Part shown: positions 1,960-20,551 of the stretch, piece by piece | How positions within the stretch are numbered: position 1 is the first letter of the stretch | Layout: every line of letters begins with the position of its first letter | Source: Arthrobacter sp. | GTDB lineage: Bacteria; Actinomycetota; Actinomycetes; Actinomycetales; Micrococcaceae | Assembly: GCA_026393275.1 (NCBI GenBank) | Contig: JAPLAM010000044.1 | Location: forward strand, 1 to 64,000 | Direction: 5' to 3' | Length of the DNA: 64,000 nucleotides | Notes under the pieces: generated by a model | Told to the model about the DNA's origin: nothing | The model's database searches: none | Seen by the model: the letters and a program-made list of their open reading frames with translations, nothing else | Program-made: the position numbers and the translations under genes

Positions 1960-2545
1960 GCGGCCGCACCGGGAACTCTTACCTTATTAACAGGGGCCTG
2001 TGGACAACCCTGTGGATACTTAAGGGGACAACCGCGGTTAATGGGCTTAAAACCCTTAAGGCGCCTGTGGATCGGCGAATCGGACAAAAATGTTGTCCCC
2101 ATCCACACCCTGTTTAAAACCTGCTCCACCCACAATCCATGAACAGGGCTTAACCCCGGAATCGCACGGCCAGACCGAGTTATCCACAGTTTCCACAGGG
2201 GTTATTAACACTACTAATCCCAAGAAAATGAAATTCCCTCAAATAACAGTTTCTGTTCCACCCTCCGCCGGCTGACTTTGGCAGCGCCGACCCACCGCCG
2301 GGGAGCCTGGACGAGAACCACAGCGGTGTAACCCGGGGATGGGAGAACGCCGTTCATGGGGCTAAGCTGTCTGCAGTGCGTCCATCCCGGACAACCTCTT
2401 GTGATTCGCACCCGAAACGGGGGCAGTGGGCAGGGCTCCGGGATGCCTGCCCTCACCCTTTGGTGGATCCGGCACGATCTGCGGAGACGCCGTGGTCCAG
2501 TGATTTTTTAGCGATGTCAGCAGCAATGAAAGGCGGCACCCCTCC
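1960..2545. other. oriC: oriC: dnaA-dnaN intergenic DnaA boxes with AT-rich segment
   Basis: This 586-base gap between dnaA and dnaN is the usual oriC position in Actinobacteria. DnaA boxes or near-boxes are at 1999-2007 (TGTGGACAA), 2011-2019 (TGTGGATAC), 2066-2074 (TGTGGATCG) and 2180-2188 (perfect TTATCCACA), with partial motifs near 2100-2107 and 2191-2197. The segment from about 2200 to 2255 is far more AT-rich than its surroundings and is the best candidate for the DNA unwinding element. No gene is seen. Assignment as oriC is from position and boxes; it was not tested. Confidence 0.85.
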
Positions 2546-3670
2546 GTGAAGTTCAGAGTCGAACGGGACGTCCTGGCCGAAGCCGTGACCTGGACCGCCC
2601 GGTCGTTGTCTCCGCGGCCGCCTGTTCCAGTCCTGTCCGGCCTGCTCCTCAAGGCCGAAGCCGGTACCGTCAGCTTGTCGAGCTTCGACTACGAGACCTC
2701 GGCCCGCCTCGAAATTCCTGCCGACATCACCACCGAGGGCACCATCCTGGTTTCCGGGCGCCTGCTGGCTGACATTTGCCGCAGCCTGCCCTCCGCGCCG
2801 GTCGAAATCGAAACCGATGGCAACAAAGTCACACTCAGTTGCCGTCGAAGCAGCTTCCATCTGGCCACCATGCCGGAGGCCGAGTACCCGCCGCTGCCTG
2901 CACTTCCCCCGATCAGCGGAACGGTTCCGGGTGACTCGTTCGCCCAGGCCGTTTCACAGGTGATCATCGCAGCCAGCAAGGACGACACGCTGCCGATCCT
3001 CACCGGTGTGCGGATGGAAATCGAAGACGACCTCATCACCTTGCTGGCCACCGACCGCTACCGCCTCGCCATGCGCGAAGTGCCCTGGAAGCCCGCAACA
3101 CCGGGCATTTCCACGAGCGCCCTGGTGAAGGCCAAGACCCTCAACGAAGTTGCCAAGACCCTCGGTGGCAGCGGCGACATCAACCTTGCCCTCGCCGACG
3201 ACGACAGCCGGCTGATTGGGTTTGAGAGCGGCGGGCGCACCACGACGTCGCTCCTGGTTGACGGGGACTACCCCAAGATCCGTTCGCTCTTCCCGGATTC
3301 CACCCCGATCCACGCCACCGTGCCGACCCAGGAACTGGTCGAAGCAGTCCGCCGCGTCTCGCTCGTGGCCGAACGCAACACCCCCGTGCGGCTCGCGTTC
3401 ACCCAGGGTCAGCTGCACCTCGACGCCGGAACCGGCGAGGATGCCCAGGCTTCCGAAGAACTCGAGGCCCAACTGACCGGTGAGGACATCACGGTTGCCT
3501 TCAACCCGCACTACCTCATCGAGGGCCTCAGCGTCATCGAGACCAAGTTCGTCAGGTTTTCCTTCACCACGGCCCCGAAGCCGGCGATGATCACCGCGCA
3601 GCAGGACGCCGACGGCGACGACCAGGATGACTACCGCTACCTGGTCATGCCGGTCCGCCTGCCCAACTAG
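2546..3670 (+). CDS. dnaN: DNA polymerase III subunit beta (sliding clamp)
   Basis: The beta clamp is a ring-shaped homodimer that tethers DNA polymerase III to the template and is a docking platform for repair proteins. The 374-aa product has the length and three-fold domain repeat of the family, beginning MKFRVERDVLAEAVTW and ending YRYLVMPVRLPN, the conserved C-terminal strand of bacterial clamps. The start is GTG 2546 with AAAGG upstream at 2529-2533. It follows oriC and precedes gnd and recF, the standard actinobacterial order. Nothing unusual is seen. Confidence 0.98.
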   Translation: MKFRVERDVLAEAVTWTARSLSPRPPVPVLSGLLLKAEAGTVSLSSFDYETSARLEIPADITTEGTILVSGRLLADICRSLPSAPVEIETDGNKVTLSCRRSSFHLATMPEAEYPPLPALPPISGTVPGDSFAQAVSQVIIAASKDDTLPILTGVRMEIEDDLITLLATDRYRLAMREVPWKPATPGISTSALVKAKTLNEVAKTLGGSGDINLALADDDSRLIGFESGGRTTTSLLVDGDYPKIRSLFPDSTPIHATVPTQELVEAVRRVSLVAERNTPVRLAFTQGQLHLDAGTGEDAQASEELEAQLTGEDITVAFNPHYLIEGLSVIETKFVRFSFTTAPKPAMITAQQDADGDDQDDYRYLVMPVRLPN

Positions 3671-3763
3671 TCCCCACCGCCACCCTCGCCTCGCAAGCTC
3701 GGCCAGGGAACCCTGGCGGCGTGGGCCCACCCCGAAATCCCAGCGCAGAAAAGAGTTCATACC

Positions 3764-4648
3764 GTGCACATCGGACTGATCGGTCTTGGCAAAATGGGTT
3801 TCAACATGCGCGAACGGCTGCGCAAGGCGGGAATTCAGGTCACGGGATTTGATCGCAACGCGGAGGTTACCGACGTCGCCAGTGTTGACGAATTGATCGC
3901 CACGGTTCCGGCGCCCCGGCTGATCTGGGTCATGGTCCCGTCCGGCGAGATCACCGGTGCCGTGATTACTGAACTCGGTAACAAGCTCGACGCCGGCGAC
4001 CTTGTGATCGACGGCGGCAACTCCCGCTTCACCGAGGACCAGAAACATGCGGCCGCACTGGCCGAAAAGGGCATCCGTTTCGCCGACTGCGGCGTTTCCG
4101 GTGGCGTCTGGGGCCTGCAGAACGGCTACGGCCTGATGGCCGGCGGCGACGCGGCCGACATCCAGCGGGCGCTCCCGGTCTTTGATGCACTCCGGCCGGA
4201 GGGTGAGCGAGCCGACAGTTTTGTGCACGTGGGCGGCGCGGGTGCGGGACACTACGCCAAGATGGTGCACAACGGCATTGAATACGGCCTGATGCAGGCC
4301 TACGCGGAGGGCTACGAACTCCTCGCGGCAAAGGACATCGTGAACGATCTGCCGGGCACTTTCCGTGCCTGGCAAAAGGGAACGGTCGTCCGATCCTGGC
4401 TGCTGGACCTCATGGTCAAGGCCCTCGACGAGGATCCCGGCCTGGAATCCATCGACGACTATGTCGAGGATTCCGGCGAGGGGCGCTGGACGGTCGAGGA
4501 AGCCATCGCCAACGCGGTGCCGGCCCCGGCCATCACCGCCGCGCTGTTCGCGCGGTTCTCTTCCCGCGAAGACAGTTCGCCGGCCATGAAGATGGTTTCC
4601 GCGCTGCGGCACCAATTCGGCGGCCACGCCACCCGGCCGGCCAAGTAG
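3764..4648 (+). CDS. gnd: 6-phosphogluconate dehydrogenase, decarboxylating (short form)
   Basis: This enzyme oxidatively decarboxylates 6-phosphogluconate to ribulose 5-phosphate in the pentose phosphate pathway. The 294-aa protein begins with a Rossmann motif (GLGKMGFNMRERLRKAG) and carries the family motifs DGGNSR, CGVSGGVWG and the catalytic-helix segment KMVHNGIEYGLMQ. It belongs to the short class of about 300 residues, which lacks the long C-terminal domain of the E. coli enzyme and is often NAD-preferring; cofactor preference here is inferred. It starts with GTG and lies 93 bp after dnaN and 22 bp before recF. A gnd gene between dnaN and recF is typical of Actinobacteria and probably gives replication-linked co-transcription. 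Confidence 0.95.
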   Translation: MHIGLIGLGKMGFNMRERLRKAGIQVTGFDRNAEVTDVASVDELIATVPAPRLIWVMVPSGEITGAVITELGNKLDAGDLVIDGGNSRFTEDQKHAAALAEKGIRFADCGVSGGVWGLQNGYGLMAGGDAADIQRALPVFDALRPEGERADSFVHVGGAGAGHYAKMVHNGIEYGLMQAYAEGYELLAAKDIVNDLPGTFRAWQKGTVVRSWLLDLMVKALDEDPGLESIDDYVEDSGEGRWTVEEAIANAVPAPAITAALFARFSSREDSSPAMKMVSALRHQFGGHATRPAK

Positions 4649-4670
4649 TCCCTGGAGTCCTGAAACCGGC

Positions 4671-5906
4671 GTGTACCTAGAACAACTTTCGCTGACAGAT
4701 TTCCGCAGTTACACCCAGGTGGATCTCGGCCTGGAACCGGGCGTCACCGTGGTCGTGGGATCCAACGGCATCGGCAAGACCAACCTGATGGAAGCCATCG
4801 GCTACCTCGCCACGCTGAGTTCGCACCGGGTCAGTTCCGATGCGCCGCTGCTGCGCTTCGGCACCGAGCGGGCGTTGATCCGGGCCAAGCTGGTCCGCGG
4901 TGTCCAGTCCACCGTGCTGGAGTTGGAAATCAACGGCAACCGTGCGAACCGTGCACGCATCAACCGCAGCAACCCGGTCCGGGCCAGGGACATCCTGGGG
5001 ATCTGCCAGACGGTGCTCTTTGCCCCCGAAGACCTCGCCTTGGTCAAAGGCGATCCGTCCAACCGGCGCCGCTTCCTGGATGAACTGCTGGTCAGCCTGG
5101 TACCCCGGCATGCCGCCACCCGCAGCGACTACGACCGGGTTCTCAAACAACGCAATGCGCTGCTGAAATCCGGCCGCGCCGGCAAATTCACTGCCGGCCA
5201 CGAGGCAACCCTCGACGTCTGGGACCAACACATGGCCCGGGCCGGAGCGGAACTCCTGCACGCACGGCTTGAGCTGGTGGAACGGCTGCTGCCGCATCTG
5301 CAGAACGCTTACGCCCAACTGACGGACGGGTCCAAGGCAGCCGGCGCGGTGTACCGCTCCAACCTACAGGACATGATCGACGACGACGGGGAAGCCGCCG
5401 TCGGCGGACCCGCATCCGCCGGTGCGTCCGCCGCCGGGGTGGCAGGCACGCAGGCAGATGGGCTCGAAAACCTGCGCCTGCTGAGCGTCGCCGAGCTGAC
5501 CGACCGCTACGTCCGGGCCTTCGCCGCGTCGCGCCGCAAGGAACTGGAACGCGGCGTCTCCCTGGTGGGTCCTCACCGGGACGAATTGGAACTGGTGCTC
5601 GGGCAGGTCCCGGCCAAGGGCTATGCCTCGCACGGGGAAACCTGGTCCATGTGCCTGTCCCTGCGCCTGGCCTCGTACTACGTGATGCTGGACGATGCGC
5701 GGACCGGTGGTTCCGCGCCGATCCTGATTCTGGACGATGTGTTTGCCGAGCTGGACGTCCAGCGGCGGCGTAAACTTGCCACAATAGTATCCGGCGCGGA
5801 ACAGGTCCTGGTGACAGCCGCTGTCGAGGACGATATCCCGGTGGAACTGACCGGACGGCGGGTGAAGGTCATTCCGGGAGGAATCGATGAGCCGGACACG
5901 CGATGA
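4671..5906 (+). CDS. recF: DNA replication and repair protein RecF
   Basis: RecF is an SMC/ABC-type ATPase that helps load RecA onto gapped DNA at stalled forks. The 411-aa product shows Walker A GSNGIGKT (residues 30-37), the motif SLVGPHRDELEL, the ABC signature region around LSLRLASYY and Walker B ILILDDVFAELD. It starts with GTG 4671. Its last codons overlap the next gene in ATGA, suggesting translational coupling with dciA. A Gly/Ala/Ser-rich acidic stretch at about residues 237-266 looks like an unstructured loop insertion compared with the compact family and may be lineage-specific. Confidence 0.97.
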   Translation: MYLEQLSLTDFRSYTQVDLGLEPGVTVVVGSNGIGKTNLMEAIGYLATLSSHRVSSDAPLLRFGTERALIRAKLVRGVQSTVLELEINGNRANRARINRSNPVRARDILGICQTVLFAPEDLALVKGDPSNRRRFLDELLVSLVPRHAATRSDYDRVLKQRNALLKSGRAGKFTAGHEATLDVWDQHMARAGAELLHARLELVERLLPHLQNAYAQLTDGSKAAGAVYRSNLQDMIDDDGEAAVGGPASAGASAAGVAGTQADGLENLRLLSVAELTDRYVRAFAASRRKELERGVSLVGPHRDELELVLGQVPAKGYASHGETWSMCLSLRLASYYVMLDDARTGGSAPILILDDVFAELDVQRRRKLATIVSGAEQVLVTAAVEDDIPVELTGRRVKVIPGGIDEPDTR

Positions 5907-6463
5907 ATAAGGACACCGACGGCGGTCTGCAACCGGGCCGCGACCCCGACGACATCGACGCGGCCCAGGCCGCACTGAACCGGATGCGTGATGCCGCGGC
6001 CGCTCGCGGCGAAATCCGCCGCAAGGCCCCGCCGCGTCCCGGTAGTGCCAGCCAAAAACCTGCCCGGGGCGCCCGGACCCGGGGTTTCAGCCAGTTCCAC
6101 GGCACCGGACGGGACCCGCTGGGGCTCGGCAAGGTGGTGGGACGGCTGGTGGCCGAACGCGGCTGGAGTTCACCCGTGGCCGTCGGATCCGTCATGGCGC
6201 AGTGGCCAGCCCTGGTGGGACCGGAAATTTCCGCTCACTGCACCCCGGAGAGTTTTACCGACACCACCCTGCACGTGCGCTGCGATTCGACGGCATGGGC
6301 CACCCAATTGCGCCTCCTGAGCCTGAGCCTGCTGGAAAAATTCCGGGTTGAACTGGGCGACGGCGTCGTGACCAGCATCCAGGTGCTCGGTCCTGCGGCG
6401 CCCAGCTGGCGCAAGGGCCTGCGGACCGTGAACGGCCGCGGCCCGCGCGACACCTACGGGTAG
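5903..6463 (+). CDS. dciA: DciA/DUF721 replicative helicase loader
   Basis: DciA (DUF721) is the ancestral bacterial protein that interacts with and helps load the replicative helicase DnaB in bacteria without DnaC/DnaI; that role is family knowledge. The 186-aa product has a basic, disordered N-terminus (about residues 1-60, rich in Arg, Ala and Pro) and the folded DUF721 domain after it, with a recognisable core around WPALVGPEISAHCTPESF and a Trp-Ala-Thr-Gln-Leu strand. It overlaps recF by four bases (ATGA), fitting an operon of replication genes. The C-terminus ends in a short basic tail. Confidence 0.88.
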   Translation: MNKDTDGGLQPGRDPDDIDAAQAALNRMRDAAAARGEIRRKAPPRPGSASQKPARGARTRGFSQFHGTGRDPLGLGKVVGRLVAERGWSSPVAVGSVMAQWPALVGPEISAHCTPESFTDTTLHVRCDSTAWATQLRLLSLSLLEKFRVELGDGVVTSIQVLGPAAPSWRKGLRTVNGRGPRDTYG

Positions 6464-6514
6464 CAGCGAAGTGTCCGCGACACCGGGTCTGAAGCACTTC
6501 TTCCAAAACCATTG

Positions 6515-6664
6515 AAAAAACCGCAAGCGCCGTGTAGGGCGCTCCGGGCCCCCGGATCCGTATAGGAACCCAACCGGAGCACCCCGGGGGCCTTGGAGGC
6601 GGAGCCAACGGCCTCCCAGCGGCACTTTGCCTGCCGTTTGGGGCTCCAAAATGCGGGTTTCCGT
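6515..6664 (-). ncRNA. candidate structured minus-strand RNA with terminator, upstream of gyrB
   Basis: Read on the minus strand, 6664 to 6515 contains successive stem-loops: arms 6632-6636/6620-6624 (CGGCA/TGCCG), 6611-6616/6595-6600 (GGAGGC/GCCTCC), 6574-6580/6541-6547 (GCTCCGG/CCGGAGC), and a final stem 6538-6543/6526-6531 (AGCGCC/GGCGCT) followed by TGCGG and a run of six T (6520-6515). The T-run follows a stem only on the minus strand. A TATACA lies at 6670-6665 as a possible -10, but no convincing -35 is seen. The third and last stems share bases 6541-6543, so they would compete. No known RNA family was recognised. The 409-base dciA-gyrB gap holds no protein gene. Confidence 0.35.
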
Positions 6665-6676
6665 TGTATAACACGG

Positions 6677-6682
6677 TAGAAT
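6677..6682 (+). promoter_or_regulatory. candidate -10 element for gyrB
   Basis: TAGAAT at 6677-6682 is a good -10 hexamer about 190 bases before gyrB. No clear -35 is visible. If used, the gyrB mRNA would have a long leader of roughly 180 bases. Confidence 0.25.
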
Positions 6683-6872
6683 CAAGATAGATAACTGGGC
6701 GCCGGTGAAACGTCGACTGAGTCTGTTTCCGACGCGATTTTTCTGTGCGGAGATCGGCTCTCGCGAGGGATGCTGCCGGCGCCATCAGTGACGTGCCTGT
6801 TGGCGGTAACCGTTCCTCTTCGGATACGGCGACGGCCGGCCTTCAACGAACGTAGAGGAGTCGAAAGCGCCT

Positions 6873-8975
6873 GTGGCCAACGACAATACAGATTTCCCGG
6901 CAGTGGATCCAACAGCAGTGGACCCAGCGGCAGCGGATGCTTTGGCGGATACCCCCGCGGAGGACGTGGCGCCCCGCGAATACGGTGCCAGTGACATCAC
7001 GGTGCTCGAGGGCCTGGAGGCTGTCCGCAAACGCCCGGGTATGTACATCGGCTCCACGGGCCCGCGCGGCCTGCACCACCTGGTCTACGAAGTCGTTGAC
7101 AACTCGGTTGACGAGGCGCTGGCCGGCTACTGCTCGCACATCGAGATCGTTCTCCAGGCCGACGGCGGCGTCAAGGTTGTCGACGATGGCCGCGGCATCC
7201 CGGTGGACATGCACCCCACCGAACACAAACCCACGGTGGAAGTGGTCATGACCATCCTGCACGCCGGCGGAAAGTTCGGCGGCGGCGGCTACGCGGTCTC
7301 CGGCGGCCTGCACGGCGTAGGCATTTCCGTGGTGAACGCACTCTCCAGCCGCGTCGACACCGAGGTACGCCGCCAGGGCCACGTCTGGCGGATGTCGTTT
7401 GCCGACGGCGGCAAGCCGCAGGGTGGCCTGGTCATGGGCGAGGAAACCGATGAGACCGGCACCACCCAGACGTTCTACCCGGATGCCACCATTTTTGAGT
7501 CGACGGTGTTCGACTTCGAGACCCTGCGGGCCCGGTTCCAGCAGATGGCGTTCCTGAACAAGGGCCTGCGCATCACGCTGACCGACGAGCGCCGCGCCGC
7601 GGCGGAACCTTCCGAGGACGCAGACCTGGACCTCGACGTCGTCGAGACCGAGGGCGAGGTCCCCGCGGACTTCCACACGGTGGTGTACCAGTACGACAAC
7701 GGCCTGCTGGACTACGTGAAGCACCTGAACTCGGGCAAGAAGGTCGAGGTTGTCCACGAGGACGTCATCGCCTTCGAGACCGAAGACAAGGAACGGCACA
7801 TCGCCCTCGAAATGGCGATGCAGTGGACCAACGCCTACTCCGAGAGTGTCCACACCTACGCCAACACCATCAACACCCACGAAGGCGGGACCCATGAAGA
7901 GGGGTTCCGCGCCGCGATGACCTCGCTCATCAACCGCTACGCGCGGGAGAAGAGCATCATCAAGGAAAAAGACGACAACCTCACCGGCGACGACATCCGC
8001 GAAGGCCTGACCGCCGTCATCTCGGTCAAGCTCGCGGAACCGCAGTTCGAGGGCCAGACCAAGACCAAGCTCGGTAACTCCGAGGTCAAGGGCTTTGTCC
8101 AGCGGGTGGTCACCGACGGTCTCGGCGACTGGCTGGAGCGCAACCCGGGCCCGGCCCGCGACGTGATCCGCAAGGCCATCTCCGCGGCCCAGGCCCGCAT
8201 GGCGGCCCGCAAGGCCCGCGACAACGCGCGCCGCAAGAGCCCGCTCGAATCCTTCGGCATGCCCGGCAAGCTGTCGGACTGCTCCTCCAAGGATCCGCAG
8301 AAGTGCGAGGTCTACATCGTGGAGGGCGACTCGGCCGGCGGTTCGGCCAAGCGCGGGCGCAACCCCGAAACCCAGGCCATCCTCCCGCTGCGCGGCAAGA
8401 TCCTGAACGTCGAACGCGCCCGGCTGGACAAGGCGCTGGGGAACGCCGAGGTGCAGTCAATGATCACGGCCTTCGGCACCGGCATCGGCGAGGACTTCGA
8501 CATGTCCAAACTCCGGTACCACAAGATCGTCCTGATGGCAGATGCCGACGTCGACGGCCAGCACATCACCACGCTGCTGATGACGCTGCTGTTCCGCTAC
8601 ATGCGGCCGCTGATCGAAAACGGCTACGTCTACCTCGCACAGCCGCCGTTGTATCGGATCAAATGGTCCAACGCACCGCACGACTACGTCTACAGCGACC
8701 GGGAGCGCGACGCGAAGCTGCTCTCGGGCCAGGCGGCCGGACGCCGTATCCCCAAGGACAACGGCATCCAGCGCTACAAGGGTCTCGGCGAAATGGACTA
8801 CACCGAACTGTGGGACACCACCATGGATCCGGACCACCGGACCCTGCTGCAGGTCACCATGGACGACGCCCTGGCCGCGGACCAGGTCTTCTCCACGCTG
8901 ATGGGTGAGGACGTTGAATCCCGCCGAAACTTCATTCAGCAGAACGCCAAGGACGTCCGGTTCCTCGATATTTAG
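6873..8975 (+). CDS. gyrB: DNA gyrase subunit B
   Basis: GyrB is the ATPase subunit of gyrase, which introduces negative supercoils ahead of the fork. The 700-aa protein contains the GHKL ATP-binding motifs ([17 protein letters not shown], with VVDNSVDEA and DDGRGIP), the TOPRIM motif [14 protein letters not shown] and the QK-rich C-terminal segment around [13 protein letters not shown]. It starts with GTG 6873, with GAGGAG at 6855-6860 a little far (12 bases) upstream. The first 40 residues are an acidic Ala/Asp/Pro-rich extension. It is followed 54 bp later by gyrA and is probably co-transcribed with it. Confidence 0.98.
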
Positions 8976-15859: not shown

Positions 15860-16014
15860 AACTACCTCCCGATTAATGTGACGGTTCTGCAGTTAGCCTA
15901 CGGGTCAGGGACTCCACCGGCTATTCTTCGGCCGGATTTAGACCGGATTTCACCCAGCGCGGAACTGCCTGCGGGGCCCTGTGCACCGGCCCCCGCCGTG
16001 GAAGAATAGGCCCC

Positions 16015-16560
16015 ATGACTGCCATCGCAACCGCAAAAGCAACCATTCACACGAACCTCGGCGACATCGTCGTCAATCTCTTCGGCAACCACGCGCCCAA
16101 GACCGTCAAGAACTTCGTCGGTCTGGCCACCGGCGAGCAGGCCTGGACGCACCCGGAAAGTGGTGAGGACAAGACCGGCACGCCGCTCTACAACGGCACC
16201 ATCTTCCACCGCATCATCAAGGACTTCATGATTCAGGCCGGCGACCCGCTGGGCCGCGGCATCGGCGGACCGGGCTACAAGTTCGACGACGAAATCCACC
16301 CGGAACTCACCTTCAACGAGCCCTACAAGCTGGCTATGGCCAACGCCGGCATCCAGATGGGCCGCGGCACCAACGGCTCGCAGTTCTTCATCACCACCAT
16401 CCCCACCGGCTGGCTGCAGGGCAAGCACAGCATCTTCGGTGAGGTGGCGGATGAGGAGTCCAAGAAGGTCGTCGACGCCATCGAAGGCGTCCGTACCGGC
16501 ATGGGCGACCGCCCGGTCGAGGACGTCGTCATCAACAGCATTGACGTAGAACAGCTCTAG
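16015..16560 (+). CDS. peptidyl-prolyl cis-trans isomerase, cyclophilin type
   Basis: This cyclophilin catalyses cis-trans isomerisation of Xaa-Pro bonds and assists protein folding. The 181-aa protein has no signal peptide, so it is cytoplasmic. The catalytic core is visible: FHRIIKDFMIQAGDP (with the active-site Arg), NGSQFFITT and GWLQGKHSIFGEV with the cyclosporin-binding Trp. It starts with ATG 16015 and lies eight bases before the rhomboid gene, so the two are likely co-transcribed, an arrangement conserved in Actinobacteria. Confidence 0.96.
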   Translation: MTAIATAKATIHTNLGDIVVNLFGNHAPKTVKNFVGLATGEQAWTHPESGEDKTGTPLYNGTIFHRIIKDFMIQAGDPLGRGIGGPGYKFDDEIHPELTFNEPYKLAMANAGIQMGRGTNGSQFFITTIPTGWLQGKHSIFGEVADEESKKVVDAIEGVRTGMGDRPVEDVVINSIDVEQL

Positions 16561-16568
16561 CCCAGGCC

Positions 16569-17462
16569 ATGAGCTACGGAATTCCGGCGGCAGAGCCGTC
16601 CGCGCAGATCCCGGTATGCCCCCGGCACCCCGACCGGCCCGCCTACGTGCGGTGCCAGCGTTGCGGGCGCCCTGCGTGCCCCGATTGCCAGCGGGCGGCC
16701 GCCGTCGGATTCCAGTGCGTTGACTGTGTCAACGAAACCAAACGTACGACGCCGGCGGTGCGCTCGGCCTACGGCGGCGCCGTTGCGGCGGGGAAGCCCC
16801 TGGCCACCCTCGGGATCATCGCGGCGTGTGCCCTGGTGTACGTCCTGCAGTGGATAGTTCCGAATGACTGGGTCTACCAGAATTTCGCTTTCGCCACCGT
16901 CTACGCCACCCCCGATTATGGAGTCTTCGAACCCTGGCGCATGCTGACGTCGGCGTTCCTCCATTCGCAGGGCTTCATCCTCCACATCGTGCTGAACATG
17001 TACATGCTGTGGATCTTTGGCCAGGCGCTCGAGCCCCTCCTCGGACGGCTCCGCTTCCTGGCCGTGTATTTGCTGTCCGCCGTTGGCGGTTCCGTCGGCT
17101 ATCTCCTGCTGACGCCTAGCTACATTCCCGGCCAGCCGCTCAGCGGCGTGGTGGGCGCCTCCGGTGCTATCTTCGGTCTGTTCGGCGCCATGCTGGTGGT
17201 CCAGCGCCACCGGGGCGGCGACACAAAACAGTTGTGGGTACTGATCGCCATCAACGGCGTCATCGGCTTCGTGGTCCCGCAGATCGCCTGGCAGGCCCAC
17301 TTGGGCGGCCTCATCACCGGGGCGCTGTGCGCGGCCGTGATCGCCTACGCGCCCCGCGGCCGGCGCCAAGGTCTGCTGCAGGTCGCAGGTCTGGCCGTCG
17401 TGGTGTGCTTGTTGATCGCGGCAACCGCCCTGCGAGTCGCCGCCACAGCCCTGCCCGCCTAG
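16569..17462 (+). CDS. rhomboid-family intramembrane serine protease with N-terminal zinc motif
   Basis: Rhomboids cleave transmembrane proteins within the bilayer. The 297-aa protein begins with a Cys/His-rich motif (Cys17, His20, Cys29, Cys32, Cys37, Cys40, Cys50, Cys53) of B-box type that probably binds zinc. Then come six or seven hydrophobic segments. The catalytic dyad is Ser198 in GVVGASGAIFG and His244 in QAHLGGL; Asn143 in HIVLNMYM is the oxyanion-hole residue. All key residues are present, so it should be active. Substrates are unknown. It is followed by a gene-free region full of DnaA boxes. Confidence 0.93.
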   Translation: MSYGIPAAEPSAQIPVCPRHPDRPAYVRCQRCGRPACPDCQRAAAVGFQCVDCVNETKRTTPAVRSAYGGAVAAGKPLATLGIIAACALVYVLQWIVPNDWVYQNFAFATVYATPDYGVFEPWRMLTSAFLHSQGFILHIVLNMYMLWIFGQALEPLLGRLRFLAVYLLSAVGGSVGYLLLTPSYIPGQPLSGVVGASGAIFGLFGAMLVVQRHRGGDTKQLWVLIAINGVIGFVVPQIAWQAHLGGLITGALCAAVIAYAPRGRRQGLLQVAGLAVVVCLLIAATALRVAATALPA

Positions 17463-17471
17463 GCTCCAGCC

Positions 17472-17591
17472 GCGACCTTTCGGCGCCCCGCGCGTCCTTC
17501 CGGCCCACTCGCGGCCTTTCGGCACCCCGCGCGCTTCCCCGGGTCCCGCGCGCCCTCCGACCCCCTCGCGGCCTTCCGGCGCCCCGCCTCG
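17472..17591. repeat. three GC-rich direct repeat copies
   Basis: About 23-bp units at 17472-17494, 17511-17533 and 17568-17591 share the core GCGGCCTTTCGGCGCCCCGC with one to three differences. They are irregularly spaced, directly after the rhomboid stop. No coding potential or hairpin explains them. Confidence 0.6.
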
Positions 17592-17680
17592 CATCTCCGA
17601 CCCCGCGTCCTGCGTCCCGTGACTCGTCCAGCGTCCCCGTCCAGGGCGCGACTTTCCACGCGGGATGTCTCCGCTTGCAC

Positions 17681-18382
17681 TTATCCACAGGTGTTATCCA
17701 CACTGTTGGTAACTTACACGCCTGTAGTTCATCGGCGGAGGACGAATCTGACGGCCCCAGCTGGGAAATCCACGTAATTCGCCTGCCACCTCTCCACAGC
17801 TGTGGAAAAGCTCGCCAGGACTCCCTGTGGTTAAGTGGACAACCCCGGCCTGGCGTAGGGCCGGCAGCGGCGCGGCACGCGTGACGCCGCACCCTCAAGC
17901 ACCCGTGTTATCTGATTTCTAGCGGATATTCACAACGTTGTGCACAGTGTTAATATCTTGATCCGCTGAGTTTCATGGCGTGCATCCCGTTCCTACGGCA
18001 ATTTCAGGGACCTGGGGCGGTGGCCGACAGACGTTATCCCCAGCTGTGGATAAGTTGTGGGTAGCGGCCTGTTATTAAGTGGAAAAGTCTTGGCCGCCCG
18101 CCGCGGCGTAGGTCTGACGAGGGGGGCCAGTGCGGGATTCGCGCTGCAGGGATCCAAAACCGCCCGATTTCGTCACCCGCCGGCGTCTCCCGGAGTTATC
18201 CACAGCTAATCCACACTGTTAATAACTCACAGAGGTGTACTTACCTGGAGATTGCAGTGCCGTCGGCGCCGCAACGGGCGCCAACGCGCGGCAACAAGCG
18301 CTGATCAGGCCGCGCATCCGCATTCCGGAGCCATCCACAGCTTGTGGATAACTTTGGACACATTGTGCACAGTTGTGGATCC
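17681..18382. promoter_or_regulatory. DnaA-box cluster distant from oriC (candidate DnaA-titration locus)
   Basis: The 945-base gene-free gap between the rhomboid gene and tag has five perfect DnaA boxes: plus strand at 17681-17689, 17694-17702 and 18196-18204; minus strand at 18045-18053 and 18343-18351. Near-matches lie at 17801-17809, 17826-17834 (TGTGGTTAA), 18034-18042 (TTATCCCCA), 18207-18215 (TAATCCACA), 18331-18339 and 18374-18382, with TTGTGCACA at 17938-17946 and 18363-18371. Some form inverted pairs (17793-17806; 18034-18053; 18331-18351). This is more perfect boxes than in either gap flanking dnaA. DnaA-box clusters outside oriC that titrate DnaA are known in Streptomyces; the same role is inferred here. 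Confidence 0.8.
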
Positions 18383-18407
18383 TCGGCACGGCCGCCGGGT
18401 GGGGCTC

Positions 18408-19013
18408 CTAAACGGACCAGACGCCCGAAGTCCCCCGCCGGTGGCTGTCCAGGAGGTGGGTGTCGACCATCCCGATGGCCTCCATGAGGGCATACATGGT
18501 GGTGGGCCCGACGAAGGCGAAGCCGCGCTTCCGCAGCGCCTTGGACAGCGCGATCGATTCCGGTGAGCTAGTGGGGATCTGGTCCGGCGCGGTGGGCTCC
18601 GGGGTGACGTCCGGCCGGAAGGCCCAGACGAAGTCCACGAGTCCGCCGTCGTCCCTGAGGTCAAGCGTGGCTTGAGCGTTGGTGATCGCCGCCCGGATCT
18701 TGAGCCGATTGCGCACAATGCCGGCATCCTGCAGCAGGCGTTCGACGTCGTCCTCGGTGAAGGTCGCCACGGTTTCGGGGTGAAAGTCAGCGAATGCGGC
18801 GCGGAAGGCGGGCCGCTTGCGCAGGATCGTGGCCCACGACAGCCCCGCCTGGAAGGCCTCAAGGCTGATCCGTTCGTAGAGGCCCTGTTCGTCCCTTACC
18901 GGGAGGCCCCACTCATTGTCGTAGTAGGCGCGCAGCAGCGGGTCCACGGCCGCCCAGGCCGGCCGGGCCAGGCCGTCGTCGCCGATGATGCAGCCGCTTA
19001 CGTCCGGGGCCAT
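18408..19013 (-). CDS. tag: DNA-3-methyladenine glycosylase I
   Basis: Tag removes 3-methyladenine from alkylated DNA in base-excision repair. The 201-aa protein aligns over its length: YDNEWG near the N-terminus, then the catalytic segment YERISLEAFQAGLSWATILR, whose Glu and Trp match the E. coli catalytic and base-stacking residues, and GFAFVGPTTMYALMEAIGMV near the end. The zinc-snap residues of E. coli Tag are only partly kept: Cys8 is present, but the His of YHDNEWG is Tyr here and the C-terminal His/Cys pair is not evident. The frame is open about 300 bases further upstream, but ATG 19013 with AAAGGA before it gives the family length. Confidence 0.92.
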   Translation of the reverse strand: MAPDVSGCIIGDDGLARPAWAAVDPLLRAYYDNEWGLPVRDEQGLYERISLEAFQAGLSWATILRKRPAFRAAFADFHPETVATFTEDDVERLLQDAGIVRNRLKIRAAITNAQATLDLRDDGGLVDFVWAFRPDVTPEPTAPDQIPTSSPESIALSKALRKRGFAFVGPTTMYALMEAIGMVDTHLLDSHRRGTSGVWSV

Positions 19014-19083
19014 CTGGAATCCTTTGCTAATGAGTGGTCTGCAAGCATTATCGCCCGCTCCGCCGCCAAGCGGCGCTGTTAAC

Positions 19084-19119
19084 GCAGCAGGCCGGCACGC
19101 GGAGGTGCCGGCCTGCTGC
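19084..19119 (-). terminator. stem-loop downstream of crgA
   Basis: A perfect 15-bp stem, 19084-19098 with 19105-19119, lies between crgA and tag, 20 bases after the crgA stop. There is no long T-run, but the stem is strong. Confidence 0.6.
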
Positions 19120-19138
19120 AAAACGGGAAGGGGGTGGA

Positions 19139-19393
19139 TCAGGAGCGCCACCGCGTGGTCATCAGGAAGCCCACAATGGCGATGCCGAAGCCGGCGACGA
19201 TGTTCCACGAGGCCCAATCCTTGACCGGGAGGGTGCCTTCGCTGATGTAGAAGGTGATGATCCACAGCAAACCGATAATCATCAGGCCGAACATCACCGG
19301 TTTGAACCACACGGGGTTGGGCTTGTACGCCTGCGTCGCGGAGGTCTGCTGCGACACGGGGGCATTCCTCTTTCGCGGCTTCGACTCTGGCAC
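19139..19393 (-). CDS. crgA: cell division protein CrgA
   Basis: CrgA is a small actinobacterial septation protein that interacts with FtsZ and penicillin-binding proteins. The 84-aa product has a charged N-terminal tail and two transmembrane helices (about 33-52, KPVMFGLMIIGLLWIITFYI, and about 63-80), and the conserved WNIVAGFGI and C-terminal TTRW. It starts with GTG 19393, preceded by GGAGG five bases upstream. Location near oriC next to sortase and pabA is conserved. Confidence 0.95.
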   Translation of the reverse strand: MPESKPRKRNAPVSQQTSATQAYKPNPVWFKPVMFGLMIIGLLWIITFYISEGTLPVKDWASWNIVAGFGIAIVGFLMTTRWRS

Positions 19394-19567
19394 GGGTCCT
19401 CCTTGGCGGGCTGAATGCAGGGCGGCTGACGCGGCTTGATATCCTGCAAGAAGGAACAGCCGTCGGTCAACGCGCTCTTGGTCACGTTTAAAATCCTGAT
19501 CGCAGCCAATTCTAGCTGTAGTTCAGGCCACCCCGAGCCCGGCGCCAAGCCCAAAGGAGAGCCCTCG

Positions 19568-20377
19568 GTGTTGCAGGAGAAAGCGGAAGCCGCGGCGCCT
19601 GCCCGTGGCGCCGGCGGAGCCCAGCCGTCGGCCGTGTCCCGCACCCTGCAGATCGGCGGCGAACTCCTGCTCACCGCCGGGGTGGTCCTGCTGCTTTTTG
19701 TCGCGTGGCAGTTGTGGTGGACCAATCTCGACGCCGATGCCCGGCAACGCGACGTCGTCAAGGACTTCGCCCGGGGACTCAGCGGCCCGGCACACGCCGC
19801 CGCCTCCCGACCGGATGCCGGCGCCGGCCCCGGTACCCGCAACGCCGCCGTGTCCGTTCCCGCCGTGGCGGGCGAGCCGGAACCCGGCGCCACGATCGGC
19901 GTCGTCTATGTGCCCCGCTTCGGCGCGGAGTACACGCGGCCCATCGTGCAGGGCACCACGCCTGCGGTGCTGGACTCGCTGGGGCTGGGCCACTACGAAG
20001 GGACCGCGATGCCAGGAGCGGCCGGAAACTTCGCGGTGGCCGGACACCGGCAGACCCACGGCGCCGTGCTGGACAACATCGACACCCTGGCCCCCGGCGA
20101 CAGGATCTACGTGCAGACCCGCGACGGCTACTACGTCTACCGCTACCGCAACAGCGAGGTTGTCCTGCCCTCCGCCGCCGACGTGCTGCTGCCGGTTCCG
20201 CGCCAGCCCTCTGCCGTGCCCCGGGAAAGTTACCTCACCATGACCAGCTGCAACCCGCGCTTCGGATCGCAGGAGCGCATCATTGCCTATTCCCTGCTGG
20301 AGAGCTGGCGGCCGGCAGACGCCGGGCCCCCGGCCGAGATTGCCGCCCAGGTGGCGCGCACCGTGGGAGGTGGGTAG
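19568..20377 (+). CDS. srtE: class E sortase
   Basis: Class E sortases of high-GC Gram-positives attach secreted proteins with LAxTG-type signals to the cell wall. The 269-aa protein has one N-terminal transmembrane helix (about 27-50), a Pro/Ala-rich linker and the sortase domain from about 108. The catalytic residues are His160 (AGHRQT), Cys228 (TMTSC) and Arg237 (SQERII). The frame is open further upstream, but GTG 19568 follows AGGAG at 19555-19559 and places the signal-anchor normally. The next small gene starts three bases after the stop, so this is an operon ending in pabA. Confidence 0.93.
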   Translation: MLQEKAEAAAPARGAGGAQPSAVSRTLQIGGELLLTAGVVLLLFVAWQLWWTNLDADARQRDVVKDFARGLSGPAHAAASRPDAGAGPGTRNAAVSVPAVAGEPEPGATIGVVYVPRFGAEYTRPIVQGTTPAVLDSLGLGHYEGTAMPGAAGNFAVAGHRQTHGAVLDNIDTLAPGDRIYVQTRDGYYVYRYRNSEVVLPSAADVLLPVPRQPSAVPRESYLTMTSCNPRFGSQERIIAYSLLESWRPADAGPPAEIAAQVARTVGGG

Positions 20378-20380
20378 GCC

Positions 20381-20551
20381 GTGTACGGATGGATCTTCCG
20401 CCGCCTCCCCGGTCCGTTATGGTTGCGCCTTGCCACGGCGCTGGTCCTGCTGGCGGGCGCACTGGTATTGATGGTTCAGTTCTTATTCCCCTGGATGGCG
20501 CAATTCAGCCCGTTCACCGACTCGACGATTGGCACGGCAACGCACCCATGA
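20381..20551 (+). CDS. small membrane protein between srtE and pabA
   Basis: This 56-aa protein starts with GTG 20381, preceded by GGGAGG. It has a basic N-terminus (YGWIFRRLPGPLWLRL) and one hydrophobic segment (about residues 18-41, with ATALVLLAGALVLMVQFLF), and then a short polar C-terminus. Its stop overlaps the pabA start in ATGA, which supports it as a real, translated gene. A small membrane protein at this position recurs in related genera as far as known; its function is unknown. Confidence 0.75.
   Translation: MYGWIFRRLPGPLWLRLATALVLLAGALVLMVQFLFPWMAQFSPFTDSTIGTATHP

Follow-up and report, generated by a model that had tools for sequence, protein, structure and literature searches.

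A six-module DnaA-box array near oriC in Arthrobacter: a candidate DnaA control locus built from a unit found beside crgA

Introduction

Why should a gene-free gap some 15 kb from the replication origin carry a dense group of DnaA boxes? The question is raised by the 945 base pairs (bp) between a rhomboid-family gene and tag in the genome of an Arthrobacter sp. (assembly GCA_026393275.1, contig JAPLAM010000044.1), of which positions 1 to 64,000, called the window here, were analysed. The original prediction, made from the letters of the window, had described a cluster of five perfect boxes on both strands together with near-boxes and no gene, and had suggested either a Micrococcaceae DnaA reservoir resembling datA or the DnaA-reactivating sequences (DARS) of Escherichia coli, or an accessory origin. 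A box scan confirmed the content of the cluster, and the distance between the cluster and the perfect box of the dnaA-dnaN gap was found to be 15.5 kb, close to the 15 kb or so predicted. The cluster is not loose, being composed of six modules with near-fixed pair spacing. As judged from sequence and position, the locus is a class-wide, here amplified, form of a DnaA-regulating box cluster outside oriC and is the orthologue of a DnaA-binding site published for mycobacteria. The preferred reading, to which a probability of roughly 0.55 is given, sees the gap as a site of DnaA control away from oriC, having a DARS-like core geometry and a putative partner protein and amplified into an array.

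The DnaA-box array

The perfect boxes of the gap (TTATCCACA) are situated at 17681+, 17694+, 18045-, 18196+ and 18343-. They represent five of the 26 perfect boxes in the source genome (3.96 Mb in 115 contigs), and by simple arithmetic about 0.004 would be expected per 702 bp at the density of the other 21. Those elsewhere include two beside dnaA and two contigs with one pair each, about 300-370 bp apart. When one mismatch is allowed, the window has 20 boxes against 3.19 expected from whole-window shuffles (n = 100, maximum 10), and nine of the 20 lie in the gap. Conservation in close relatives, the check proposed with the prediction, was borne out: a perfect box is found within about 1.5 kb after the rhomboid gene in 57 of 59 loci of the genus and family (source copy included), the two without one being L016 and L064. 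A scan of positions 16000-20500 against Rfam returned no family at the gathering threshold.

Alignment of 18 gaps from the genus shows six conserved islands, the modules M1 to M6, separated by diverged linkers (Table 1). M1, M3 and M5 are each formed by a box, a second box and an inverted box (->-><-), while a convergent pair (-><-) comes first in M2, M4 and M6. The spacing of the modules was measured in the 31 genus loci that have M1, using only those anchors that passed with at most 4 mismatches. Each anchor search was confined to a set range (60-220 bp in the case of M2b), within which the distances gather on a single figure. M2b lies 130-133 bp from M1 in 26 of 28 loci; in the other two the distance is 141-142 bp, about one helical turn more. 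M3 and M4 are separated by 93-97 bp in 27 of 27 loci, and M4 and M4b by 37 bp in 25 of 26. The linkers vary among these loci, from 245 to 528 bp between M1 and M3 and from 152 to 790 bp between M4 and M5. Fixed spacing over a diverged spacer would be the expected trace of a protein complex assembled on one face of the helix.

The composite unit and its occurrence in the class

M1 and M5 are copies of a composite unit of about 55 bp, in which three DnaA boxes (-> at 0, -> at 12 or 13 and <- at 23 bp) are followed by the palindrome TNACA-N4-TGTNA. The gene crgA, present in 239 of 246 genomes of the class, served as the landmark for finding further copies, and 40 gaps anchored on it were examined from spread families. 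In 24 of these gaps ACA-N4-TGT occurs 20-75 bp after a box; the same was seen in one of 40 control stretches (L131), where the control overlapped the element itself. The 24 loci, together with M1 and M5 of the source genome, form the 26 rows of alignment A1. Each row was required to have the palindrome core, a box form and a box-to-palindrome distance of 32-37 bp; for the TCCACA in box 1 and the outer spacing of 23 bp, the palindrome filter was a less direct constraint. In 23 of the 26 rows the starts of the first and third boxes are 23 bp apart. The middle box points forward at 12 or 13 bp in 21 rows and is at 11 bp in three; in two (L125 and L131) it is inverted at 10 bp, the exact mirror of 13.

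A model of the unit, R1, spanning 57 positions and built on sequence only with 25 class genomes in training, was used in whole-genome scans. At an expectation value (E) of at most 0.01 it matches 207 of the 246 class genomes (185 of the 221 good ones). Within the Micrococcaceae group 77 of 78 loci are matched. The miss, L016, is a short copy whose genome has a longer copy, L176, that does match, so that all 77 of 77 genomes of the group are found by R1.

The position of the unit was tested in the 91 genomes with both a best R1 match and crgA among the matches listed, a scope that holds for all counts of this test. The best R1 match lies within 2 kb 3' of crgA in 84 of the 91, and within 300 bp in 81, the median distance in the class being 60 bp. 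The unit is oriented opposite to crgA in 80 of the 84. When the 25 training genomes are left out the result is 59 of 66. A further 59 genomes with crgA listed had no R1 match among the matches listed, many of them belonging to families f24, f22 or f23. In a cruder control the boxes themselves were counted: of 60 distinct genomes, 49 have YYVTCCACA no more than 200 bp from crgA on its 3' side and one has it on the 5' side, and the reversed motif gave 1/60 and 0/60, respectively.

Named records were obtained from one scan with a PpiA alignment, which yielded 80 loci, 48 of them actinobacterial. R1 matches 36 of the 48 at E ≤ 0.05 and 31 at E ≤ 1e-4, and none of the 32 non-actinobacterial control loci (0/32). 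The matched genera include Arthrobacter, Pseudarthrobacter, Microbacterium, Cryobacterium, Leucobacter, Nocardioides, Corynebacterium, Dietzia, Rhodococcus, Williamsia, Mycobacterium, Amycolatopsis and Actinomyces. The 12 misses are L280, L284, L288-L290, L292, L295, L300, L304, L305, L309 and L316, and crgA is detectable in the stretch for just five of them (L280, L284, L289, L292 and L300).

In other classes of the phylum, at least 47 genomes match R1 at E ≤ 1e-3 among about 109, a figure in which the class of 43 unlisted R1 misses is taken unchecked; most of these matches are weaker or partial. The R1 match adjoins crgA in four of the six other-class loci examined (L260, L261, L263 and L266). 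No description of a class-wide composite unit at crgA was found in searches of the open-licence literature.

The mycobacterial counterpart

The composite unit is situated 3' of crgA in Mycobacterium pinniadriaticum (L303, R1 56.4 bits) and in genomes of family f9, and in L303 a GAATC word stands between box 3 and the palindrome. In M. tuberculosis the gene crgA is Rv0011c. The Rv0010c-Rv0011c gap is described in PMC7738170 as one of the five top DnaA-binding regions in mycobacteria, bound in vitro in M. tuberculosis and in vivo in M. smegmatis, with its role left open. The same paper reports recurrent clinical mutations in the gap and IS6110 insertions at GAATC; mutants of the site have longer cells, show isoniazid effects (intermediate resistance) and share the phenotype of dnaA variants, which the authors compare with hypomorphs. 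According to this paper the site has no counterpart in other bacteria (PMC7738170).

The source gap is homologous to this mycobacterial gap in place and core sequence. Both lie 3' of crgA, here with tag in between, and both have the unit of three boxes and a palindrome; the difference is that the source gap holds two full units within six modules. Three of the companion regions in mycobacteria, namely oriC (here the dnaA-dnaN gap) and the regions upstream of dnaA and of dnaB, have boxes in the source genome too. Together with the crgA gap itself, this makes four of the five mycobacterial kinds of region that recur, the comparison having covered these four; the fifth published region is Rv3843c-RVnc0040.

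The palindrome and its candidate partner

The arms of the palindrome, TNACA, have a free third base. At this base the arms match each other in 11 of the 26 rows against 11.1 expected, showing no covariation, which argues for the site of a protein dimer and not for an RNA hairpin. The pattern TTACACNNGTGTAA was found in 40 of 197 class genomes and its reversed control in six. Among 30 such loci examined, eight are beside crgA, and the others include sites upstream of WhiB-family genes or of nrdR-nrdJ. The WhiB-family gene was checked with Pfam in L217 and in L201 of the source genome (C39:84813); in the latter the palindrome TTACACACGTGTAA stands just upstream of the gene and near a TTGACT hexamer, and DnaA boxes are absent. 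Upstream of nrdR-nrdJ, at about position 1500 in L203, L205 and L215, the palindrome is accompanied by DnaA boxes (NrdR was checked with Pfam in L205 and is readable in L203 and L215). The adjoining sequence there resembles an NrdR box.

MtrA is a candidate, and a candidate only, for the partner at the palindrome. The half-site with its free third base resembles the MtrA half-site TNAC, although MtrA sites are direct repeats and the palindrome is inverted. HigA2 was set aside as a general partner, as it is not known to occur across the class. The targets of MtrA are reported to include oriC, dnaA and whiB genes (PMC5487470, PMC5650626, PMC6265350, PMC13189361), and HigA2 of M. tuberculosis is reported to bind the palindrome of the crgA gap (PMC11205783).

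The origin region and other DnaA-box sites

Each gap flanking dnaA has one perfect box (365 and 2180), in agreement with the prediction, and in addition four and two one-mismatch boxes, respectively. A partial R1 match is found upstream of dnaA in five of five genus genomes. The unwinding module (basal unwinding system, BUS), made of tandem boxes, a GC-rich segment and at least three DnaA-trios, appears complete only in the dnaA-dnaN gap. After box 2, M1 reads CTG-TTG-GTA, M5 reads CTG-TTA-ATA and the class unit reads GGGGAT, these triplets having been read by eye. The GC skew of five complete genus genomes, calculated plainly and at fourfold sites by gene strand, switches neither at dnaA nor at the cluster.

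DnaA boxes are also grouped elsewhere. In the trxA-parB gap of the source genome (locus L178, C111:20000-32000; positions 3355-8444 of the locus), which has eight parS-like sites (five of the nine in L178 are perfect), boxes at 5864, 5898 and 6232 stand among these sites. DnaA-box clusters are situated at about -8 kb in four of the five complete genus genomes. Another cluster lies upstream of dnaB (Pfam) at 8215-8523 of locus L179 (source genome C43:10000-24000), and a cluster with matching spacing is found about 46-52 kb from dnaA in genomes G044 and G139.

Neighbouring genes and coordinates

The gene order in the window is dnaA and dnaN, on to ppiA, the rhomboid gene, the 945-bp gap, tag and crgA (Table 1). 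The rhomboid gene and tag/crgA converge, as they do in those class loci in which both could be located, and the gap is therefore downstream of both. The prediction had drawn attention to tag and crgA as neighbours. The link to tag seems to be a matter of chance. Of 32 genus loci, 24 have tag after the array (the other eight stretches, of about 1.5 kb or less, ended before reaching it), and of 27 loci of other genera none has it there. The link to crgA holds class-wide. At the N-terminus of the rhomboid protein (window 16569-17459) a B-box zinc finger (Pfam PF00643) was matched.

Table 1. Window coordinates of the array, its modules, neighbouring genes and features at dnaA
Feature	Position	Strand	Details
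Gene-free 945-bp gap with six-module DnaA-box array, between rhomboid gene and tag	17463..18407	.	
M1, full composite unit	17680..17731	+	boxes 17681+, 17694+; inverted weak box 17704-17712; palindrome arms ~17713-17729; R1 41.4 bits (R1 training row)
M2	17790..17842	.	convergent pair 17790+/17801-, plus 17826- and 17834-; near-fixed spacing to M1
M3	17926..17958	+	boxes 17926+, 17938+; inverted TGTTAATAT at 17948
M4	18034..18086	.	boxes 18034+, 18045-, 18056- (mirrored three-box core), plus 18078-; 93-97 bp to M3
M5, second full composite unit	18193..18245	+	boxes 18196+, 18207+; inverted box 18217-18225; palindrome arms ~18226-18242; R1 34.5 bits (R1 training row)
M6	18331..18382	.	boxes 18331+, 18343-, 18363+, 18374-
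Rhomboid-family gene, left neighbour, reads towards gap	16569..17462	+	Pfam PF01694, E 3.9e-30
tag-type methyladenine glycosylase, right neighbour, convergent	18408..19013	-	Pfam PF03352, E 1e-66
crgA, class-wide landmark beside unit	19139..19393	-	Pfam PF06781, E 2.4e-31
Partial unit (inverted DnaA box and palindrome) upstream of dnaA	347..382	-	R1 21.5 bits, E 9.5e-6
dnaA	535-1959		Pfam
dnaA-dnaN gap, probable oriC	1960..2545	.	boxes 2180+/2189+, then GGGG and TTATTAACACTACTAATC; BUS definition from PMC8287927

Proposed function and alternatives

DnaA very probably binds the gap, and on each unit it would make two contacts, one of them head-to-tail and the other head-to-head. Assembly at the unit may be gated by a partner protein, and the modules of a pair may cooperate from a constant side of the helix. 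The complex would then alter the nucleotide state of DnaA and not just soak the protein up, most likely by DARS-like reactivation; for reactivation as opposed to titration the odds appear about even. Lying about 15 kb from oriC, the array would be copied soon after initiation, so that its dose would follow the cell cycle.

It is possible, though doubtful, that the array is a sink, which titrates DnaA or promotes its ATP hydrolysis as datA does and thereby holds back re-initiation. A fifth or so of the perfect boxes of the genome (5/26) stand in it, near oriC and so copied early, and PMC4585315 and PMC5742627 describe clusters near oriC that repress initiation in Bacillus subtilis and Streptomyces coelicolor. 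However, a passive sink requires neither the near-fixed spacing of the module pairs nor a fixed 23-bp core, the single unit present in most relatives would be a small sink, and the essential boxes of datA are unidirectional, whereas one of three is inverted in the unit. The mycobacterial site mutants, which resemble hypomorph-like dnaA variants (PMC7738170), point the same way: as loss of the site resembles weak DnaA, an activator is easier to reconcile with them than a sink. As for the reservoir originally proposed, its conserved, non-coding DnaA-box locus outside oriC stands, but it is not specific to Micrococcaceae, as the core unit is class-wide.

Control of transcription, or a bidirectional terminator for the flanking genes, is improbable. 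The inverted box pairs of M2, M4 and M6 are potential hairpins, and the mycobacterial gap is upstream of Rv0010c, which is affected by HigA2 according to PMC11205783. The source gap, in contrast, is downstream of both its convergent neighbours, and both flanking genes are reported unchanged in M. tuberculosis dnaA mutants (PMC7738170). For the tandem units the hairpin was rejected, since ->-> boxes form none and the arms of the palindrome do not covary. Least probable is that the gap serves as an accessory or second origin, or that oriC is split and the gap is its distant arm. The gap has words in common with the dnaA-dnaN gap, such as GTTATTAAC, and its low-stability 40-mers rank 1-22 of 15,992 windows, near the 0-3 of the dnaA-dnaN gap (five genomes). 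Yet it is in the dnaA-dnaN gap that the full unwinding module appears to lie, and in the class unit box 2 is followed by GGGGAT, so that this part of the original prediction is not supported.

Several observations weigh against a DnaA control locus of DARS-like geometry. The invariance of ACA-N4-TGT in A1 is partly due to the selection of rows, the figure before selection being 24 of 40 loci with the motif near a box, and box 3 is degenerate in the modules of the source genome (2 mismatches). No R1 match was found in 39 of the 246 class genomes, many of them in f24 (Streptomyces-like), f22 and f23, where just scattered boxes or weak partial matches are kept. Among the matches listed, the best one is not beside crgA in seven of 91 genomes; six of these matches are distant on the contig of crgA, all in family f31, and one is on another contig. 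The partner protein at the palindrome is putative. Published DnaA binding and phenotypes at this gap come from mycobacteria, not from Arthrobacter-like bacteria, and initiation rate was unaltered in the dnaA mutants, as reported in PMC7738170. The spacing of DARS is not matched, tandem pairs being 11-13 and convergent pairs 9-12 bp apart here against 12 and 14 bp in E. coli. R1 does not recognise the E. coli DARS and datA stretches (best 11.4 bits), which rules out sequence homology and leaves a likeness of design, not membership of DARS.

An extension of the DARS-like reading is offered tentatively. The unit may be an ancient, dedicated actinobacterial DnaA-regulating element, and on this reading it would probably be older than the class, since copies stand beside crgA in other classes too. 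It would be an exchange platform of DARS type, controlled by a cell-cycle regulator that occupies the palindrome, and the array with its helix-phased module pairs would be its amplified form. Since the palindrome also occurs upstream of dnaA, of WhiB-family genes and, with DnaA boxes, of nrdR-nrdJ, one regulator, MtrA being the best-known candidate, could tie together the state of DnaA, the supply of deoxynucleoside triphosphates and division.

What is new is that the mycobacterial site appears as one copy of a class-conserved unit, whose core has a definite geometry and which includes a site for a partner. An oddity of one species, M. tuberculosis, thereby becomes a general question about the regulation of DnaA in actinobacteria, far from the datA/DARS paradigm of E. 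coli. The harmless soil relatives with an amplified array are suited to tests of the role of the site.

Comparison with known systems

Streptomyces coelicolor reportedly has several DnaA-box clusters, D78, H69 and H24, close together around oriC. Six named loci of Streptomyces type have two to four boxes between the rhomboid gene and crgA (L280, L281, L284, L285, L289 and L292), and R1 detects an intact unit in none of the six at E ≤ 1e-4. The source array resembles the initiation-repressing clusters of Streptomyces and Bacillus in being a box cluster near oriC. With datA it shares the combination of a DnaA-box cluster outside oriC and a site for a partner protein.

At the gene addresses of DARS1 and DARS2 of E. 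coli, the three-box groups both read -> 14 <- 12 <-. PMC5742627 gives DARS1 and DARS2 a common core of three equally spaced boxes, with box I opposite to II and III; the hallmark of this core is a head-to-head contact, whereas the essential boxes of datA point one way. The actinobacterial unit likewise has a core of three boxes with one opposite to the others, a head-to-head pair and a 12-bp tandem, arranged in the mirrored topology.
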